Assembly (NCBI GenBank): GCA_028873525.1
Contig: JAGWIM010000006.1
Coordinates: 1-45,234, forward strand
Source of the DNA: Pseudomonadota bacterium
Lineage (GTDB): Bacteria; Pseudomonadota; Alphaproteobacteria; Rickettsiales; SXRF01
Length of the DNA: 45,234 nt
Direction of reading: 5' to 3'
The position numbers and the translations under genes were made by a program. Below, piece by piece: positions 11,916-39,540 of this stretch. The first letter of the stretch is position 1, and every line of letters starts with the position of its first letter. The notes under the pieces were generated by a model that saw only the letters and a program-made list of their open reading frames with translations, had not been told where the DNA came from and searched no databases.

Positions 11916-12971
11916 ATGCGTATCCGTTTCAGTTTTTGGCTGGTGCCTCTTGCCGCGCTGCTCGCCGCCTGCGCGCAGCAGCCGCCTCTGCCGGGCACAA
12001 AGACGGGCAAGCCCTACGTCGTCGGCCATAATCTCTATTTTCCATCCTACGATGATACCTACGACAAGATCGGCGAAGCGTCATGGTACGGCCCCGGCTT
12101 CAACGGCAGGAAAACCGCCAGCGGTGAGGTTTTCAACCAGAACGACCTGACGGCAGCGCATCCGACGCTGCCCATGCCGTCGCTGGTGCGCGTCACTAAC
12201 TTACGCAACGGCAAAAGCCTGATCGTGCGCATCAACGACCGCGGGCCGTTCGCCAGCAACCGCATCATCGACCTGTCGAAACGCGCCGCGCATGATCTTG
12301 GCATTTCGAGCATCGCGCAGGTGCGCGTGCAATTCCTGAAAGCACAAACCGAGGATTATATCGCCCGCTCGGAAACCGCCGGCCACCCGATCAGCATGGC
12401 GTTCTATAACGAGGCCGCCGAACCCGTCCGGGAAACGGCCATGCCGTCCGCCGCGCCGCCGCCGGCGCAGATTGTCGAATCGGACGTGCATGAGACACAC
12501 GCCGGCGATACGGTAACCCCCATCGCGCCGGTGATGACGGTCAGCAGCAGCAACCTGAAGTCTTCCGCCGACACCAATCTCGCCGACAAGGACGGCCATC
12601 CGGTCAGAAGCATAGGGCTGATGCGGCAGGCCTGGGCCGACGATAACGTCACCTTGCCGGATCCGCCCGCCGTGCGGGAATCTGCGCCTCCGCCCGCACC
12701 GGTCAAGAAACATGCGGCAGGGAAAACGCCGGCTGAAAAATTATCCGCTGTTATCATCCAGGCCGGCTCGTTCTCCACGCAGAAAAACGCGCAGAAACTG
12801 GCGGCGGCGCTGGCTGGCATTGCCCCGATCACGGTTGATGAGGTGGCGATGGGCGGCAGACATTGGTGGCGCGTCCGTCTTGGGCCGTTCAGCAGTAAGG
12901 CGGAGGCCGGCAGCGCGCTGGCCAAAGCGCGCGCGCACGGCGTGGCCGACGCGCGAATCACGCATCAATAA
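11916..12971 (+). CDS. rlpA: RlpA family lipoprotein with SPOR domain
   Basis: RlpA is an outer-membrane, septum-targeted lipoprotein; family members act on denuded glycan strands. ATG 11916 follows GGAGG; the longer open frame to 11850 overlaps mltB and is rejected. The lipobox LAAC gives Cys19 as the lipidation site. The double-psi beta-barrel runs about residues 40-145, with GEASWYGPGFNGRKTASGE and VRINDRGPFASNRIIDLS. A Pro/Ala linker follows, then a C-terminal SPOR domain (VIIQAGSFSTQKNAQKLAAAL to the end) that binds peptidoglycan at division sites. The D,D-carboxypeptidase gene follows 12 bases later. Confidence 0.93.
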   Translation: MRIRFSFWLVPLAALLAACAQQPPLPGTKTGKPYVVGHNLYFPSYDDTYDKIGEASWYGPGFNGRKTASGEVFNQNDLTAAHPTLPMPSLVRVTNLRNGKSLIVRINDRGPFASNRIIDLSKRAAHDLGISSIAQVRVQFLKAQTEDYIARSETAGHPISMAFYNEAAEPVRETAMPSAAPPPAQIVESDVHETHAGDTVTPIAPVMTVSSSNLKSSADTNLADKDGHPVRSIGLMRQAWADDNVTLPDPPAVRESAPPPAPVKKHAAGKTPAEKLSAVIIQAGSFSTQKNAQKLAAALAGIAPITVDEVAMGGRHWWRVRLGPFSSKAEAGSALAKARAHGVADARITHQ

Positions 12972-12982
12972 GGGAGGTATCA

Positions 12983-13006
12983 AGTGTCAGGTGTCGGGCG
13001 TCAGAC
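12983..13006. repeat. Family A heptads at the start of the D,D-carboxypeptidase gene
   Basis: 7-base units of the form (A/G)G(T/C)GTC(A/G) repeat about three times directly after the ribosome-binding site. They provide the GTG start codon at 12984 and the first residues SGVGRQ. Confidence 0.65.
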
Positions 13007-14132
13007 AATCAGGAAGTTGTACAAATCAGCCGTGTTTCTGGTGATAACGGTTGCCTTGCCTCTGTCACCTGCCTATGCCATCGACACCGTCGCCAGGCAG
13101 GCGTTCCTGGTTGACATGAACACGGGCGCGGTGTTGCTCAACAAGAACGGCGACGAGGAGATGCATCCGTCGTCGATGAGCAAACTGATGACAATTTACA
13201 TCCTGTTTCAGCGTCTCAAGGCCGGGCGCGTAAAGCTCGACGACCAATTCACCGTCAGTGAGAAAGCCTGGCGCACGCAAGGATCCAAAACCTTCGTCGG
13301 CCTCGGCGACAGCATTTCGGTGGACGACCTTATTCACGGCATCATCGTCCAGTCGGGTAACGACGCCTGCATCGTCGTCGCCGAAGGGCTGGACGGCACG
13401 GAAGATGCCTTCGTCGCCGAGATGAACAGCACCGCCAAGGCGCTTGGGCTGGCGCACAGCCATTTCGCCAATGCCACCGGGCTGCCCGATCCCACCCACC
13501 TGATGACAGCGCGCGACCTGGCAACGCTGGCCGAGCGCATCATTACCGATTTTCCCGAATATTATCATTATTTCGACGTACGGTCGTTTACCTATAACCA
13601 CATCACGCAGGGCAACCGCAACCGGCTCCTGGGCGATGACATCGGCGTCGACGGCCTGAAAACCGGCCATACTGAGGAGGGCGGCTACGGCATCACCCTG
13701 TCCGCCAGACAAAAGGCGCGCCGCCTGCTGCTCGTCCTGAATGGCATGGATACCGACAACGAGCGCGTCGAAGAGGGCAGCAAGCTGCTGCGCTGGGGAT
13801 TCCGCGCCTTCGAGGACAAAACGATTCTCCGCAAGGGACAAAAGCTGGCGGATGCCGAAGTCTGGTTCGGCAACAAGGCGCTATTGCCGCTGGTCGCCGG
13901 CAACGACGTTACGCTGACGTTGCCTGCCGGCGACGCCAACATCGCCATGACGCTTAAATACGTTGGCCCGATTCCGGCGCCCGTTGCCAAAGGAGCGCAC
14001 GTCGCCGACCTTATCGTCAAGGCCGGCGATCTCGCGCCGCAATCCATCCCGCTGGTCGCCGGCGAGGATGTCGGCAGGATATCCGGCTTCGGCAGGCTGT
14101 GGGCGGTGGTCAGCCATTATGCGCATCGCTAA
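12984..14132 (+). CDS. D-alanyl-D-alanine carboxypeptidase (DacC/PBP5 type)
   Basis: It trims pentapeptide side chains of peptidoglycan; serine penicillin-binding protein, peptidase S11. The active-site motifs are SMSK (S64-K67), SGN (S124-N126) and KTG (K226-G228). After the catalytic domain, a beta-rich C-terminal PBP5 domain runs to about 370. The GTG start at 12984 is set by GGAGG seven bases upstream; a hydrophobic segment AVFLVITVALPLSPAYA follows as signal peptide. The first residues come from a heptad repeat. It is third in the mltB-rlpA-dac run. Confidence 0.93.
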   Translation: MSGVGRQTIRKLYKSAVFLVITVALPLSPAYAIDTVARQAFLVDMNTGAVLLNKNGDEEMHPSSMSKLMTIYILFQRLKAGRVKLDDQFTVSEKAWRTQGSKTFVGLGDSISVDDLIHGIIVQSGNDACIVVAEGLDGTEDAFVAEMNSTAKALGLAHSHFANATGLPDPTHLMTARDLATLAERIITDFPEYYHYFDVRSFTYNHITQGNRNRLLGDDIGVDGLKTGHTEEGGYGITLSARQKARRLLLVLNGMDTDNERVEEGSKLLRWGFRAFEDKTILRKGQKLADAEVWFGNKALLPLVAGNDVTLTLPAGDANIAMTLKYVGPIPAPVAKGAHVADLIVKAGDLAPQSIPLVAGEDVGRISGFGRLWAVVSHYAHR

Positions 14133-14866: not shown

Positions 14867-15891
14867 CCCCCCGCACCAACACCGAACTGTTCGGCCACCA
14901 GGCCGCCGAGGCGGAGCTTCTGCGCGGCCTCTCCTCCGGCGCGCCGGCGCACGGTATCATCATCGGCGGCCCGCGCGGCATCGGCAAGGCGACGCTGGCG
15001 TATCGGTTTGCGCGGGCGCTGCTTGCTTCTTCCTCTCCCCCTGCAGGGGGAGGAAATACCGCCGCCCGCATCGCCGCCAATTCCCATGCCGACCTGTTGG
15101 TCATAGAACCCGAATACGATGAAAAAAAAGAGGAATTCGCCAACGAAATCACCGTCGGGCAGGCGCGCCGTATTCCGCAGTTCATGGCGATGACGCCGGG
15201 CGAGGGGCAGTGGCGCCTCGTCATCATCGATCCCGCCGACGCTCTCAACGCCAGCGCCGCCAATGCCCTGTTGAAAATCCTCGAGGAACCGCCGCCGCAG
15301 GCGGTGCTGCTGCTGGTGTCGCATAATCCCGGACGCCTGCTGCCGACCATCCGCTCGCGCTGCCGGACGCTGCGCATGGCGCCACTATCAACGGACGATT
15401 TCACCGCCGCCGTGCGCCATGTTGCGCCGGAGACCGAAAATCTGCGCGCGCTGGCGGCGCTGTCGGCCTGTTCGCCCGGCGTGGCGCTCGAAATGGGGCA
15501 GGGGGCGCTCGGCATGTATGCCGACCTGCTTGCCTTGCTTTCCGGCCTGCCGCAGCTCGACGCGTCAAAAATCCACGCCTTCGCCGATACATTCTCCGGC
15601 AGCGGCGTCCATATGCGCTGGCGGCTTTTGAGGCAATCGGTGTTGCATCTGTTTGGCCGCGCCGCGCGGCAAGCGGCGGGGGCGCCGGTTGAGCCTGTTT
15701 CGGGCGAGGAGGCGGCCGCCCTGCGCACGCTGGTTGCGCTTCACCCGGCGGGTGTCTGGGCGGCGAAATGGCAGAATGCCGCCGGGCAATTTTCATTGGC
15801 GGAGGCGCGGCATCTCGATTACAAGCAAGCATTCATTGAATTTGCGCATACGATAGCAGATAAGGAGTTACCGGCGGCCGGCGGCCAGTAA
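14860..15891 (+). CDS. holB: DNA polymerase III subunit delta prime
   Basis: Clamp-loader subunit. IIIGGPRGIGKATLAYRFA is the P-loop region (about residues 28-46), VIIDPADALNASAANALLKILEEPP is the conserved Walker B and sensor area, and SHNPGRLLPTIRSRC is the SRC arginine-finger motif. A palindrome at 15035-15052 (family D) encodes the SSSPPAGGG insertion between the P-loop helix and the AADLL-like strand. The gene overlaps tmk and is followed by metG. Confidence 0.92.
   Translation: MLTPRTNTELFGHQAAEAELLRGLSSGAPAHGIIIGGPRGIGKATLAYRFARALLASSSPPAGGGNTAARIAANSHADLLVIEPEYDEKKEEFANEITVGQARRIPQFMAMTPGEGQWRLVIIDPADALNASAANALLKILEEPPPQAVLLLVSHNPGRLLPTIRSRCRTLRMAPLSTDDFTAAVRHVAPETENLRALAALSACSPGVALEMGQGALGMYADLLALLSGLPQLDASKIHAFADTFSGSGVHMRWRLLRQSVLHLFGRAARQAAGAPVEPVSGEEAAALRTLVALHPAGVWAAKWQNAAGQFSLAEARHLDYKQAFIEFAHTIADKELPAAGGQ
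15031..15054. repeat. Family D palindrome in holB
   Basis: CTCCCCCTGCAGGGGGAG at 15035-15052 is a perfect 18-base palindrome with TCCT/AGGA flanks. It encodes SPPAGGG in frame in the delta prime subunit. Confidence 0.8.
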
Positions 15892-15925
15892 AAAACTGAT
15901 CGCTGGCCGCTGCCCACCGGCCGCT

Positions 15926-18428: not shown

Positions 18429-19187
18429 ATGACGATACCGATAGAAGAACTGCTCACCGTCCTCTGCCCCGGCGCATCGTCGGCGCGCAGCGCCGATCTG
18501 CAGAAGGCTTATCTCATACCCGATGTCGCCGGCGCGAAGATGGCTTATGAAGTGCTGACGGCATATGGGTTCGATGCGAAGCTGTACCCGGAAGCAGACG
18601 CGTCGAAACTTTATGTTGCCCTGCCGCCGGCCGGCGACGCCTGGGGGAAAAAATTTTCCGCCGCGCTGGCGCACGCCCGGTCGCTGGCATCCATCCGGCA
18701 GAATCTGGACGGCGTTTCCAGCATGACGTTCGCCAACGCGATCGGCGGCGGCAAACAGCTCGTCATCCAGTTTGCCCCCGCCGCCGCCGAAACCGCCAAA
18801 CCGCCGACTGCGTCACCGCGCGCGGCACCCGTCTTCCTTGAAAAAAAAAATACAGGGACGAATCCGGCCAGGAAGGCAAAAAAGGGCAAAGATTCCTTCA
18901 AGGCACTGTCAGGCCCGGCGGTGGGAAAAACCAGCTATCCCGACGCCCTGTTCGCCGGCAAGCGCGAGGACGGGCTGTGGCGGCAATTTTACCTTTATAC
19001 GCGCGGCAACATTGCCACCGTCACTGCCGCATTTTTCACGTTCGTCATCGTACCGGCGATCATCGCCTTCAGCATTTTTACCCTGACCAAAAGCTTCCTC
19101 TGCCGCGATTTCGCACTGTCGAAGATGCAGGAGAATCATGCCTGGTACTGTGGAACGGATGACGGCAATGCTCCATCGCAAAACTAG
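18429..19187 (+). CDS. Unknown protein with C-terminal membrane segment
   Basis: No family recognised. Residues 1-115 are globular, alpha/beta-like and Ala/Lys-rich. About 118-175 is a Pro/Ala/Lys-rich linker (PTASPRAAPVF, KKNTGTNPARKAKKGK). A hydrophobic anchor (TVTAAFFTFVIVPAIIAFSIF) lies at about 197-217, with a short Cys-containing tail (SFLCRDFALS, HAWYCGTDD). The N-terminus would be cytoplasmic if the positive-inside rule holds. A run of ten A residues at 18841-18850 encodes KK in the linker. The gene overlaps the aroA-cmk start by 50 bases. Confidence 0.65.
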   Translation: MTIPIEELLTVLCPGASSARSADLQKAYLIPDVAGAKMAYEVLTAYGFDAKLYPEADASKLYVALPPAGDAWGKKFSAALAHARSLASIRQNLDGVSSMTFANAIGGGKQLVIQFAPAAAETAKPPTASPRAAPVFLEKKNTGTNPARKAKKGKDSFKALSGPAVGKTSYPDALFAGKREDGLWRQFYLYTRGNIATVTAAFFTFVIVPAIIAFSIFTLTKSFLCRDFALSKMQENHAWYCGTDDGNAPSQN

Positions 19188-21243
19188 CTCCATGCGCTCC
19201 GCCGCCGCCAGCCTCAGGGGCGAAGCCGCCGCGCCGGGGGATAAATCCGTCTCGCACCGCGCGCTGATGCTGTCGTCGCAGGCGCCTGGCGTCACGCGCA
19301 TTTCCGGCCTGCTCGAGGGCGAGGACGTGCTGAATACGGCGAAAGCCTTGCGGTCGCTGGGCGTCACCATCCGGCAGGGAGAGGTATGGGAAACCGAGGG
19401 CGTCGGCATCGGCGGACTGGCCGAGAGCGCCGAGGTGCTGGACATGGGCAATTCCGGCACCAGCACGCGGCTCCTCATGGGGCTGGTCGCCCCCTACCCG
19501 TTTACGACGTTCTTCACCGGCGATGCTTCTTTGAGCAAGCGCCCCATGAAGCGCGTCATCGAACCGCTCGAGCGCATGGGCGCGAAGATTACGGCGCGGC
19601 GCGGACACTTGCCGCTGGCCGTCACCGGCGCGGCGGACATGCTGCCTGCCCGATACCGGCTGCCAGTGCCGTCGGCGCAGGTGAAATCGGCGATCCTGCT
19701 GGCGGGGCTGAATATCGCGGGGAAAACCACCGTCATCGAACCGCAAGCGACGCGCGACCATACCGAAAACATGCTGCGGTTCCTTGGTTTCAAGGTGGAA
19801 GTGAGCACCCTCAGCCACCGGGAAGGGGACGGCGGCGGCCGTGGTGAGCGCCGCCCTCACCCGGAGGGCGGGGGAGACGTAGCCATCAGCATTCATGGCC
19901 ATCAGAGAATTACACCGGCCAATCATGAGATTTACGTGCCGGGCGACCCCTCCTCCGCCGCGTTTCCCGTCGTTGCGGCGCTGCTCTGCAGGGATTCACG
20001 CATCCTTATAAGGAATGTCTGCGTCAATCCCCTGCGCGCCGGACTATTCACGACATTGAAAGAAATGGGCGCGAAGCTGGAATGTAAAAACGAGCGCATG
20101 GTGGGGGGAGAAAAAGTGGCCGACATCACCGCCGAAACCAGCGCGCTGAAAGGCGTCGTCGTGCCCGCCGAACGCGCGCCTTCCATGATTGACGAGTACC
20201 CGATACTTGCGGTGGCCGCCGCCTTTGCCCGGGGCGAAACGGCGATGCACGGGCTTTCGGAACTGCGCGTCAAGGAAAGCGACCGGCTTGCCGCCATCGT
20301 CGAATCGCTTGCAGCCTGCGGGGTTTCCGCCCGCGCCGAGGGCGACAGCCTTTACGTCAAAGGCGGCGATGTGAAAGGCGGCGCAACCATCGCCACGCAT
20401 TTCGACCACCGCATCGCCATGAGTTTCCTCGTGCTCGGCATGGCAAGCAATGACCCGGTGACGGTGGATGATGCCACCGCCATCGCCACCAGTTTTCCCA
20501 ATTTCGTGCAGTTGATGAACGGATTGGGCGCGAAAATAGAGATGCCGGATGTCGGGTGCCAGGCGCCGGATAGGAAAGCGTCTTCCGGCATCCATCCGCT
20601 GGTCATCGCCGTGGATGGCCCGGCCGCCTCCGGCAAAGGTACGCTGGCGCGCAGGCTGGCCGAGCATTTCGGGCTGGATTACCTCGATACCGGAAGCCTG
20701 TACCGCGCGGTGGGCATGAAACTGGTCTATGCCGGCAAGGACCCGCGTGACCGCGCCGCCGCCACCGAAGCGGCGCAGACCATTGACGCCGATGATCTTT
20801 CCAACCCGCGTTTACGGCAAGAGCATATCGGCCAGGCGGCGTCGGTTGTGTCGGCCTTCCCGGAAGTGCGCGAGGCGCTGCTCGAATTCCAGCGCAATTT
20901 CGCCCGCAGCGCCAATGGCGCGGTGCTGGACGGCCGCGATATAGGCACCGTCGTCTGCCCGGAGGCTAATTTCAAGTTCTTCGTCACCGCCACGCTTTAT
21001 GCCCGCGCCAGGCGCCGCCACAAGGAGCTTTCCGGTCAGGGCATCGAGGTGGTGTTCGAGTCGGTGCTTGACGATTTGCGCGAACGCGACGAGCGCGACG
21101 GAAAACGCGCCATCGCCCCCATGAAACCCGCAGGCGACGCCCTCGTCATCGACACCACCGTCTTAGACGCCGGCGAAGTGTTCGAGCGAGCGTGCGGAGT
21201 GGTTGAGAAAAGCAGGGAAGCAGAGAAACAGCACGCCTGTTGA
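19138..21243 (+). CDS. aroA: Fused EPSP synthase and cytidylate kinase (AroA-Cmk)
   Basis: Residues about 15-470 are 5-enolpyruvylshikimate-3-phosphate synthase (shikimate pathway): PGDKSVSHRALMLSS, the NSGTSTRLLMG motif, MKRVIEPLERMGA and the late LRVKESDRLAAI. Residues about 485-701 are a complete CMP kinase: P-loop GPAASGKGTLARRLA, DYLDTGSLYRAV and LDGRDIGTVVCPEA. The join (about residues 467-485, bases 20541-20593) is encoded by a heptad repeat, and another repeat insert sits at about residues 223-246. ATG 19138 has AGGAG upstream; starts at 19159, 19168 and 19192 are possible. Separate aroA and cmk neighbours are the usual alphaproteobacterial arrangement; the fusion is known in betaproteobacteria. 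rpsA, the usual next gene, is absent. Confidence 0.93.
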   Translation: MPGTVERMTAMLHRKTSSMRSAAASLRGEAAAPGDKSVSHRALMLSSQAPGVTRISGLLEGEDVLNTAKALRSLGVTIRQGEVWETEGVGIGGLAESAEVLDMGNSGTSTRLLMGLVAPYPFTTFFTGDASLSKRPMKRVIEPLERMGAKITARRGHLPLAVTGAADMLPARYRLPVPSAQVKSAILLAGLNIAGKTTVIEPQATRDHTENMLRFLGFKVEVSTLSHREGDGGGRGERRPHPEGGGDVAISIHGHQRITPANHEIYVPGDPSSAAFPVVAALLCRDSRILIRNVCVNPLRAGLFTTLKEMGAKLECKNERMVGGEKVADITAETSALKGVVVPAERAPSMIDEYPILAVAAAFARGETAMHGLSELRVKESDRLAAIVESLAACGVSARAEGDSLYVKGGDVKGGATIATHFDHRIAMSFLVLGMASNDPVTVDDATAIATSFPNFVQLMNGLGAKIEMPDVGCQAPDRKASSGIHPLVIAVDGPAASGKGTLARRLAEHFGLDYLDTGSLYRAVGMKLVYAGKDPRDRAAATEAAQTIDADDLSNPRLRQEHIGQAASVVSAFPEVREALLEFQRNFARSANGAVLDGRDIGTVVCPEANFKFFVTATLYARARRRHKELSGQGIEVVFESVLDDLRERDERDGKRAIAPMKPAGDALVIDTTVLDAGEVFERACGVVEKSREAEKQHAC
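19806..19880. repeat. Family D repeat inside the aroA domain
   Basis: A C/G-rich stretch with GCGGCGGCC and GGCGGGGG runs adds about 24 Gly/Arg/Glu-rich residues (DGGGRGERRPHPEGGG) between the conserved strand EVEV-like VEVST and the GPGDPSSAAF-like segment. The frame is kept. Confidence 0.7.
20541..20593. repeat. Family A heptads at the aroA/cmk junction
   Basis: Units such as GATGCCG, GATGTCG and GGTGCCA repeat with 7-base period, and a later TCCGGCATCC can pair with the first copy. It encodes the linker PDVGCQAPDRKASSG between the two enzyme domains. Confidence 0.75.
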
Positions 21244-32784: not shown

Positions 32785-33207
32785 ATGGCTACCCTTCATT
32801 CGCCCGTTATTTCGCGGCAGAACGTGTTGTTCATGCCGAGCGTGTTCAACGAAACCATGCAACTGCTGGTGGATGCGCACGACTATTTTCAGCGCTTCGG
32901 CAACGATGACCAGAGCCGCATCGAGCCGCAACTGAAGGCGCTTTATTCCTGCGAGATGTCGCGAATCACGCTGCGCCTGTCGTCGATCATGGCGTGGATC
33001 ATGGTGCAGCGCGCCGTGTTTTCCGGCAAGATTCCGCCCACGGACGCCGCCCGCCAGTACCATCTCGATTTCGCGGACGTCTGTACGGTTGATAACCGCG
33101 TATTGCACGGCATCCTTCCGTCCTATGTCTGTTACCTGCTCGACCGCTCGCGCGAGCTTTACGAGCGCGTGATGCGGCTGGACGGGCAGGTGCATCAGTT
33201 GCATTAA
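32785..33207 (+). CDS. rcdA: RcdA-like protein (DUF1465, regulator of CtrA degradation)
   Basis: In Caulobacter RcdA is an adaptor that helps ClpXP degrade CtrA at the cell pole. The 140-residue all-helical protein carries family signatures: DAHDYFQRFG, CEMSRITLRLSSIMAWIMVQRAV and the ending YLLDRSRELYERVMRLD. Ribosome-binding AGAGGAAG precedes the ATG. It is plus-strand, between addA and addB on the minus strand; the 85-base gap to addA is a shared divergent promoter region. CtrA itself is not in the window, so the regulon is an inference. Confidence 0.8.
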   Translation: MATLHSPVISRQNVLFMPSVFNETMQLLVDAHDYFQRFGNDDQSRIEPQLKALYSCEMSRITLRLSSIMAWIMVQRAVFSGKIPPTDAARQYHLDFADVCTVDNRVLHGILPSYVCYLLDRSRELYERVMRLDGQVHQLH

Positions 33208-36080
33208 ACCATTTCCCATTCCTGCCTCCGCGCGAGATGCTCGTAATCGTTGTAGCGCGACGAACTGGCCTCAGCCGCGTAGGAAGTCGCCGCATTGTCA
33301 AAGCGTGCAATCAGCGCCAGCAGCCGTTCCTCAGCCGCCGCAATCGACCCGGGCGCGATGGTGCGAATTTCGCAGGCGTCGGGGTTGCCAGCCAGCCGCC
33401 AATATTCAAGCGTAATCTCCCGGCCGCTGATTAATCCGCCATGCCGCGCCGTCAGCGCTTCCAGCGGCAACTGGTTGGCCAACCCCCGTTCAACTTCTGA
33501 CGGTGACGGCGGCGTGCCGGTTTTGTAATCGATGATGGTGGCGCTGCCGTCTCTGCCCGTTTCAAGCCGGTCGATGCGCGCCGTCAACGTAAACGGCGGG
33601 TTGCCGGCAATCTGCCACTCTCCCTGCACTTCGCCCGCGACGCGCCATATGCGCCCGCGCCGTTCTTTTTCGGCATCCGTCAGCCACGCCGCCATCGCCT
33701 CGAACCGCGGCCACCACAAACAGGCCACCGCCGGACGATCGGGAAATTCGGCGAATGCCTCGCGACCGCACGCAAGCAGCGCCGCCAGCGGATTATCGGG
33801 CAGCGCTTCCGGCCACGTACGGACAAATTTTTCCAGCGCGCCATGCACCAGCATCCCGAAATCGGCGGCGTCGGGGTCTTCGTCGAGTGCTTCAAGTTTT
33901 TTCAGGCGGAGGATGTAACGCGCATAGACCATGTATGGATCGCGCAGCCAGGCATCGACGGCGGTAACGCTGAGGCGGCGCGGACGGGCGGCAAGCGGCG
34001 GCGCCGGTTCCGGCCGTGCCAGCGGTGGAAAATCAAGCGGCGTATCCAGCAGCCTCGTCCCCTGCCCGTATTTTGCCTCGACATGCAATGACGCCGCATG
34101 GCCGGCGGCCAGCGTTTCCAGCCGTACCAGCCAGCGCGACGGCACGGTGGGCATACCGTCCACCTTGCGCGAACGCGACAAAATAACTTCCGGCGCGGCG
34201 GCCAGCATATAAAAATCATGCGCGCTCTGGCCAACGCCGCGCTCCGCGGGCGGCAGGCCGAAACTATCCCGCATCGGGCGGCTCATCCACGGATCGGCCT
34301 CCGGCAGCGGCGGCCAGGTGCCTTCGTTGAGACCGCCTAAGATGACCCGGTTGAAATGCAAAAGCCGCGCCTCGATGGGACTCAATATATGCAGGCGCGG
34401 GTGCAACCCCCAGCGCGGGCGGTAAAGCTGGCCGGACAGCAATGTTTCAAAAAGCCCTGGATAGGTGAGCGGGTCAATCGGCGGCAGCAATTCCGCCTGC
34501 GGCAGCAACTCTGCGAGATATGCGGCAAGCTGGTTGCCGTCATCGCCTGCCCACAGCCGCGCCGCGCCCGGCGTTTCATCAGTTGAGGCCAGCCATTCGG
34601 CGAGCTGCATGTGCGCTTCGAGCAACGCGCGAAGCGTTATTCGCTGTTGCGAAAAACACTTCATCAACGGGATTGATTGTTCCGCCAGCGACGCCAGTAG
34701 TTTTTCCACGGGTTTATGCCTGGCGGCATCGCGCAACGCCTCCAGCCCCGGCGCGCGGCGAATGCCGCGCAGCACATCGGTTTCAAGCAACCGCGATAAG
34801 CGGCGGCATTGCGGAGTCGGCAGACCGGCAGCCGCAAACGGATGGCGCAGCAGCGACAGCAGCGGCACGGGCGCGGCGCACGAGGCCGCCATGTCCGAAA
34901 CCAGGCGCATGAAACAGGCGGGCGGCGTATCCTTGAGTGGCCGGCCCGCCGAGTCGTCAATCGCAATGCCGAAGCGCTGCATCTGCGCGGCCACCATGCG
35001 GGCAAGCTGGCGGTCGGGCGTCACCAGCGCCGCGGTTTTTCCCGGAGTTTCCAATGCCTCGCGCAAGGCGACGGCGATCATCCGCGCCTCATCATGCAGC
35101 GTATCTGCGGCAAGCAGATGGATGCCCCGCAATCCCTCCGGCGAAAATGCCGACGACGACCATTCGGCGGTTGCCTCGGGGGGCTGGAGGATGGAGCGGA
35201 GGGCGCCGACGCGCCGGGTATCAGAGGCCAGAGGTCGGAGGTTAGAGGCATTTTTTCTAACATCCGGCATCCGGCATCCGGCATCGGCTGCGAAACAGCC
35301 CAGCCATTGCTTCATGCCGGATTGCGGATGCGTCGCGCCGGCGATAGCCCATTCTGCATCAGGCATTTCGGTATCGAGGCCGGGAAGGACGACCATCCCC
35401 TGCGGCAGCCGTGCGATTACGGAAAGCAAGACAGCGGTAGCCGGTATCGATCCGGTGGAACCGGCGGCGATGATGGGATAATCGGGTGGATTCTTTCGCC
35501 ATGCCCCCGCCGTTGCCATGAGCAGGAGCGAGCGGTGCCTGCCGGGATCAATCGCTTTCTCGCTTTCCAGAATTTTTGGCCAGTGATGCGAAACGAGTTT
35601 CAGGAATTCGAGCGTCTCCTGCCAGTGCGACGCCAAATTTTCCGGCGCCAGCGACGCCAGCCGATCAAAATCGAGATTTTCGCGTGCCACTTCGTCAATG
35701 AACCGCGCCAGTTGCCGCGCCAGTTCGGCGGCCTGGGCGACACCGTAACGCTCGCCCTCATATTGCATTACCAGCCGCGTCAACAGCAATTCGCGGCGCA
35801 GCGTGGCGATGGCGGGCGGAATATCCTCCGCGGCGATGCCGTAACCGACGCTTTCTTCGTCCACCTCGCCGATCGGCTGGATGCGCGGAAGCAGGAGCGG
35901 CTTGCCGCCCGCCGCCTCGAGAAACGCCTCGCGCATGGCGCGGCAGGCGCGGCGGTTGGGTAACAGCAGCAAAAGGCGCGGCAACGCCAGCGAACCACCG
36001 TATTTCTCAAGAACCCATGCCGCAAGGGTGCGGGCAAAGGGCGCATCGGCAGGGATAGTGCGGCAATGAAGCTGATTCAT
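33204..36080 (-). CDS. addB: Double-strand break repair subunit AddB
   Basis: The partner of AddA; a helicase-like scaffold with a C-terminal nuclease. LLLLPNRRACRAMREAF marks the N-terminal nucleotide-binding-like region, VILGGLNEGTWPP is the classical AddB signature, LSVTAVDAWLRDPYMVYARYILRL the domain before the nuclease, and ATIIDYKTGTPP the PD-(D/E)xK core at about residue 850. Length 958 fits. A heptad/hairpin repeat at 35217-35286 encodes an insert near residues 270-290, ending DTRRVG. Its stop overlaps the last bases of rcdA. Confidence 0.94.
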   Translation of the reverse strand: MNQLHCRTIPADAPFARTLAAWVLEKYGGSLALPRLLLLLPNRRACRAMREAFLEAAGGKPLLLPRIQPIGEVDEESVGYGIAAEDIPPAIATLRRELLLTRLVMQYEGERYGVAQAAELARQLARFIDEVARENLDFDRLASLAPENLASHWQETLEFLKLVSHHWPKILESEKAIDPGRHRSLLLMATAGAWRKNPPDYPIIAAGSTGSIPATAVLLSVIARLPQGMVVLPGLDTEMPDAEWAIAGATHPQSGMKQWLGCFAADAGCRMPDVRKNASNLRPLASDTRRVGALRSILQPPEATAEWSSSAFSPEGLRGIHLLAADTLHDEARMIAVALREALETPGKTAALVTPDRQLARMVAAQMQRFGIAIDDSAGRPLKDTPPACFMRLVSDMAASCAAPVPLLSLLRHPFAAAGLPTPQCRRLSRLLETDVLRGIRRAPGLEALRDAARHKPVEKLLASLAEQSIPLMKCFSQQRITLRALLEAHMQLAEWLASTDETPGAARLWAGDDGNQLAAYLAELLPQAELLPPIDPLTYPGLFETLLSGQLYRPRWGLHPRLHILSPIEARLLHFNRVILGGLNEGTWPPLPEADPWMSRPMRDSFGLPPAERGVGQSAHDFYMLAAAPEVILSRSRKVDGMPTVPSRWLVRLETLAAGHAASLHVEAKYGQGTRLLDTPLDFPPLARPEPAPPLAARPRRLSVTAVDAWLRDPYMVYARYILRLKKLEALDEDPDAADFGMLVHGALEKFVRTWPEALPDNPLAALLACGREAFAEFPDRPAVACLWWPRFEAMAAWLTDAEKERRGRIWRVAGEVQGEWQIAGNPPFTLTARIDRLETGRDGSATIIDYKTGTPPSPSEVERGLANQLPLEALTARHGGLISGREITLEYWRLAGNPDACEIRTIAPGSIAAAEERLLALIARFDNAATSYAAEASSSRYNDYEHLARRQEWEMV
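35217..35286. repeat. Family A heptad hairpin in addB
   Basis: GAGGCCA/GAGGTCG/GAGGTTA-like units, then a loop of T residues, then three CCGGCAT heptads. GTCGGAGGTTAG pairs with CTAACATCCGGC with one mismatch, giving a 12-base stem. It is read in frame as about 23 extra residues rich in Arg, Ser and Asp. Confidence 0.85.

Positions 36081-38065: not shown

Positions 38066-39540
<1,475 letters not shown>

Follow-up and report, generated by a model that had tools for sequence, protein, structure and literature searches.

The aroA and cmk genes of this Rickettsiales genome form one open reading frame, and the linker between the two domains is occupied by a heptad-built hairpin element that belongs to a family dispersed in the same genome. 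The best explanation, with a probability of about 0.88, is a history of two events: an old aroA-cmk fusion, and then entry of the element into the linker in this species. Judged by comparison with the sequences of relatives, the gene fusion is old, and the repeat within it is a passenger that did not cause it. The window is the whole stretch of DNA analysed (45,234 nt), and the study genome from which it comes is a fragmented assembly of 156 contigs, some of them masked.

The fused aroA-cmk gene

The features of the fused gene are as follows.

19138-21243, plus strand: aroA-cmk fusion ORF, 701 codons; translation open, no stop between the domains
19195-20535, plus strand: AroA (EPSP synthase) domain; TIGR01356 392.5 bits, PF00275
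19808-19885, plus strand: separate in-frame insert within the AroA domain, about SHREGDGGGRGERRPHPEGGG; inverted repeats
20541-20604, plus strand: heptad-hairpin element that occupies the linker between the domains, residues E468-I485; arms, covariance model and fold
20599-21201, plus strand: Cmk (cytidylate kinase) domain; TIGR00017 168.9 bits, PF02224

As the sequence-only reading had stated, AroA and Cmk are encoded in a single open frame, and both domains scored above the curated cut-offs of their models. TIGR01356 matched residues 28-465 and TIGR00017 residues 488-684, with cut-offs of 287.25 and 135.55 bits, respectively. The invariant residues of the AroA family, GDKS, SAQVKSA, KESDR and DHRIAM, were all present in alignment A3, and the Walker A motif GPAASGKGT and the motif DGRDIGT of Cmk were intact. 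The alignment of relatives begins only at residue 17-22, so translation probably starts at a later ATG, among those at about 19159-19192. In a protein search, the fusion ORF was the sole AroA match and the sole Cmk match in the study genome. An AlphaFold2 model made with 32 fused sequences displayed two confident domains, and pLDDT fell below 50 only at residues 1-19 and 471-483, the latter within the linker.

A repeat element in the linker

The linker DNA (20541-20592) is a degenerate heptad array with an inverted arm. The arms at 20541-20554 and 20579-20592 are complementary at 12 of 14 positions, the heptad GCCGGAT occurs twice, 21 nt apart, and four successive heptads, each compared with the next unit, match at 15 of 21 positions. 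The covariance model R2 was built from 13 copies, mostly coding, with the linker left out. R2 nevertheless found the linker as its best match in the window, with 42.1 bits and E values of 1.8e-8 for the window and 8e-7 for the whole study genome of 2 Mb. Together with the heptads and the inverted arms, this score bore out the earlier claim of a repeat insertion in the linker. Within the family this copy is weak, at 42 bits versus 50-83 bits for most coding copies. The 52-nt element alone gave a fold z of -3.4, and only -1.9 with its flanks. A DNA search of the study genome with the 61-nt linker returned weak matches only; such a search for near-identical copies misses this family.

The linker peptide in AroA-Cmk, PDVGCQAPDRKASS, is common to 12 other coding copies, and its segment GCQAPDRKASS agrees with GCQVADKKDSS, GCPAPDKKNAS and others. 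The sequence-only reading had ended the AroA domain at GLGAKIEM. This end stood except for its last two residues, as the TsaD copy VREMSGAGY places EM already in the repeat.

Age and distribution of the fusion

The family comparison covered 15 same-family genomes besides the study genome, and a wider draw covered 175 genomes of the order. All 13 of the same-family genomes that gave a match have the two domains in a single open frame. Within the wider draw, fused genes were found in families f1, f5, f9, f13, f17, f21 and f29 and once in f23, while aroA and cmk were separate, and in some cases adjacent, in the remaining families. In the same scan, the two genes were also separate in Kiloniella, Paramagnetospirillum, Gluconobacter and other Alphaproteobacteria. 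In-frame stops reported in the fusions of some relatives fall outside the joined frame, near its ends.

None of the 34 fused relative loci had an R2 match in the linker. Fused relatives thus carry no repeat at this place, indicating that the repeat entered after the fusion. Linkers across the order vary freely in length and sequence, and those of the relatives span 8-25 residues by a common measure, with one misaligned row (L098) set aside. In the same-genus genome G001 the linker region reads DLMNGIGGRIGVAKENHRAITSSFVVIAVDGP, and the linker of the window is only about 6 residues longer. The element would therefore have replaced or overwritten most of an earlier linker, rather than being a clean gain of 52 nt.

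Both domains were used for a tree, made by a quick search with SH-aLRT as its only measure of support. The 34 fused rows formed one clade (SH-aLRT 89), in which only G060 was split, and G095 stood apart. The betaproteobacterial fusions fell on a distant branch. The distribution across families and this tree indicate that the fusion is old within Rickettsiales and independent of the betaproteobacterial one. The betaproteobacterial AroA-Cmk proteins (NCBIfam NF008816, PRK11860) have the enzyme pair and the domain order in common with the fusion of the window, but a separate origin on the tree, and the NF008816 model scored only 301.9 bits on the window fusion versus a curated cut-off of 943. The earlier proposal of independence from the betaproteobacterial fusion was thus upheld. 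A literature search located no paper on the fusion in this group.

Two genomes depart from the pattern of their relatives. In G060 (family f29; L062), aroA and cmk overlap but are separate, whereas the two are fused in its congeners L050, L056 and L058; this state is either a secondary split or a frameshift. G095 (L074) has a fused gene in family f23, whose other members have separate genes, and may represent a further independent fusion or a transfer.

A dispersed family of coding elements

Searching the study genome with R2 gave 64 rows, corresponding to about 40 places when both strands are counted once. The elements are 52-80 nt long. In 14 of the 24 best places examined, the reading frame ran uninterrupted across the element and for 40 codons or more to either side. 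Coding copies made up most of the training set of R2, which makes this ratio a biased measure of how many copies are coding. The 14 in-frame copies lie in 12 conserved genes, which NCBIfam and Pfam models identified as PheT, TsaD, PolA (two copies), XthA (two copies), KdpA, PurD, KdsB, GltB, HPPD, an RluA-type synthase, AddB and AroA-Cmk. Most coding copies encode a peptide like SGAGCQASDKKxxSS. The element peptides were SGAGCQVADKKDSS in GltB, SGAGYQASDEKDTS in TsaD, TGAGCRVSDKKGIPS and PGAGCRVSDKKAVSS in XthA, and SGAGCPAPDKKNAS in PheT. Three further features lie in the window.

35223-35285, minus strand: family element in frame inside addB (33207-36080, minus strand), ADAGCRMPDVRKNASNLRPLASD; 41.4 bits, open through
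12976-13070, plus strand: family element adjoining or overlapping the 5' end of a D-Ala-D-Ala carboxypeptidase gene (12984-14132); 36.5 bits, E 4.4e-7
15864-15925, plus strand: weak element-like hairpin just before metG (15926); 22 bits, E 0.0017

The AddB host gene itself scored 878.5 bits. Homologues without an insert show that the XthA and TsaD elements are insertions. At XthA site 1, all 14 other family rows run from YIEAV to ASVYV or the like without an insert, and the other family genomes have a shorter TsaD loop, except for G006, which carries its own heptad copy in that loop. The arms pair at 71% of cells within the subfamily alignment A1, in which pair counting found no covariation beyond that of shuffles. 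In the window, Rfam gave no match at gathering score.

At least four repeat-like inserts lie in frame in the glutamate synthase gene GltB (L177, 10564-15465), two of them heptad hairpins at about 11945-12031 and 13182-13248.

Elements in relatives and the PolA site

At E 0.01, R2 gave 28, 18, 16, 15, 13, 10, 9, 7, 2 and 2 rows in genomes G001, G002, G006, G009, G004, G011, G015, G014, G003 and G007, respectively, and none in G005, G008, G010, G012 and G013. Of 42 places examined in relatives, 22 lie in a frame that stays open across the element and over 50 or more codons to either side, some of them perhaps only by chance. All 10 of the ORFs tested were named conserved proteins, the hosts being UvrA, PolA (in two genomes), DnaE, Der, LipB, LeuS, MurD, Mfd and GlyQ. 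An IUPAC pattern, with 15 matches in the study genome versus 0-1 in others, had made the element appear nearly unique to it; the covariance-model rows in relatives ruled this out.

PolA site 2, between YVPLGH and PLARAL, carries a hairpin in G000, G001 and G009 at the same place and in the same orientation (L312, L380 and L409), with a similar T-rich loop. The heptads were GGTGAC/GTCACC, GGGATT/AATCCC and GGATGAC/GTCATCC in G000, G001 and G009, respectively, with pairing kept, and the fold z values were -7.6, -3.3 and -7.9. Either the site is a hotspot, filled separately in each lineage, or an old element there has had its two arms rewritten together. G000 and G001 also have another PolA site in common.

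We tentatively consider, at somewhat less than even odds, that coding hairpins may stay in place and remain paired while each genome exchanges their heptads for its current type, the family being rewritten in concert. Given that alignment A1 displayed no covariation, this idea draws on the three PolA sequences. If true, it would need a copying process that rewrites both arms together while translation is tolerated.

Heptad arrays in the genome

Arrays were counted on 579 kb of unmasked DNA of the study genome. Period-7 arrays occurred at 11.9 per 100 kb, versus 1.8 in relatives of the family and order, and most other periods not divisible by 3 or 7 occurred at 0-2 per 100 kb in the study genome. 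For 42 of the 69 arrays, a complementary partner within 110 nt reached at least the 99th percentile of random segments. The units vary by copy (GCCGGAT, GTTGACA, GCGTGGC, AGTGCTT and others), but each copy has matching arms.

In the window, heptad arrays were also seen at 1463-1500 (CGCCACG) and 2105-2175 (GCGTGGC with an inverted partner) in the ORF 1250-2539 on the minus strand, an alpha/beta hydrolase. They may be additional elements read in frame and built from a different type of heptad.

Order of events and alternative explanations

The aroA and cmk genes would have been neighbours in an ancestor of a large Rickettsiales clade and would have fused there, with a short linker free of repeats. 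At a much later time, a small palindrome with the plan heptad arm, A-rich loop and inverted heptad arm (about 52-75 nt) would have come to occupy most of that linker in frame in this species. This order is suggested by the nesting of the repeat within the fusion. Copies would have spread by insertion, and intragenic copies would be retained when their frame is stop-free and they lie in surface loops or domain junctions, where they would add or replace about 15-25 residues and be tolerated through flexibility.

According to the sequence-only reading, two neighbouring genes became joined in this species when a heptad repeat entered at the stop codon of aroA. The linker is truly a repeat of a dispersed family, and adjacent, unfused aroA-cmk pairs do occur in other Alphaproteobacteria and in some Rickettsiales. 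However, the comparison with sister genomes that this reading had proposed gave fused genes with repeat-free linkers in the same-genus genome, in all 13 matching genomes of the family and in other families, and the fused rows form one old clade, which makes a joining at the stop codon very improbable. Repeat-free fused relatives are the outcome that this reading had itself named as its refutation. An ordinary drifting linker that resembles a heptad hairpin by chance, from its GC-rich composition, would suit the freely varying linkers of the order and the heptad match of only 15 of 21 positions. Such a coincidence is improbable given the genome-wide E value from an independently trained model, the five family genomes in which R2 had no match at E 0.01, and the agreement of the linker peptide with those of other copies.

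Another alternative concerns how the element arose rather than its timing relative to the fusion, and overlaps with the two-event history. Here, heptad hairpins would arise in place: short heptads made by slippage in loops would be expanded and then copied to the other strand when the template switches inside the hairpin, so that no transposition from another place is required. Heptads that differ among copies and genomes yet pair within each copy, the single PolA site with different heptads in three genomes, and the excess at period 7 and its multiple 14 are in line with this. But unrelated genes share sequence that includes the loop (GATAAAAAAG) as well as a peptide, so copying between places is needed, and the two XthA copies have identical left arms and loop starts; origin in place is less likely than not.

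Comparison with known systems

Protein-coding palindromes were first described in Rickettsia and later in Wolbachia, as a feature peculiar to them. Rickettsia palindromic elements (RPE) and the Wolbachia protein-coding palindromes were reportedly the subject of work by Ogata et al. in 2000, 2002 and 2005. To our knowledge, the origin of protein-coding palindromes has never been settled.

Both groups of palindromes are reviewed in PMC10969869 and PMC2229807. In the portions of these reviews available to us, RPEs are dispersed palindromes in and between genes that lie in frame in unrelated conserved proteins and encode a recurring peptide, as do the elements found here, whose hosts belong to the same bacterial order. 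The present elements are likewise inserted in frame in several unrelated conserved genes (14 copies in 12 genes) and form hairpins from inverted arms (z -3.3 to -7.9 for PolA and -3.4 for the linker). However, RPEs are given there as about 105-150 bp long versus 52-80 nt here, and those portions do not describe RPEs as heptad-built, whereas the present elements have tandem heptad arms. Unlike RPE hosts, the present hosts have larger genomes (about 2 Mb, 50-57% GC) with a heptad type that differs by genome. Since length and heptad structure differ, and RPEs were compared by description only, we do not file the elements as RPEs.

Cyanobacterial STRRs are heptamer direct repeats. The TAACTGA heptamer repeats of Beggiatoaceae and cyanobacteria (PMC4679880) are short dispersed 7-nt arrays, and the study genome likewise has an excess of 7-nt tandem arrays over other periods. 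TAACTGA repeats have one fixed, direct and mostly intergenic unit, whereas the present elements have varied units, an inverted arm and many coding copies. REP/REPIN elements with their RAYT transposases (PMC3116915, PMC8266576, PMC3733652) are likewise small hairpins scattered over genomes and may be non-autonomous, but REPs are mainly extragenic, 20-40 bp long and not known to contain tandem heptads. A literature search located no paper on heptad coding palindromes in Rickettsiales. The present elements are heptad-built coding palindromes in other, larger-genome members of the order, found in essential genes that include PheT, TsaD, PolA and UvrA. Several such genomes can be compared, so the spread of inserts, their tolerance by proteins and concerted evolution of the arms are directly testable.

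Proposed tolerance of coding copies

As 7 is coprime to 3, a heptad array with a stop-free 21-nt cycle should be open in all frames of its strand, so that heptads can enter coding sequence without truncation. The loop has TAA in one frame and would thereby select the reading frame, which fits the single shared peptide frame. The inserts lie in loops or domain junctions, such as the AroA-Cmk linker and the region before the PolA 3'-5' exonuclease domain, where flexible residues are likely harmless. A precedent for tolerance is the Rickettsia guanylate kinase with an RPE insert, which is reported to be translated and active with a changed substrate affinity (PMC2229807). It appears that a small, selfish-looking DNA repeat is able to add short peptides to working proteins.

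Other repeats

The insert within the AroA domain (19808-19885) was absent from 18 aligned relatives, and a DNA search of the study genome with its 81 nt returned weak matches only. It is possibly a degraded member of another family of coding palindromes, whose peptide, about SPSPxRGEGWGGG...TPSLTLPPAGGG, was found in GltB (L177), a 693-aa ORF (L221) and a 776-aa helicase-like ORF (L228). A CCG triplet array with a 24-nt period was also observed at 38289-38351.
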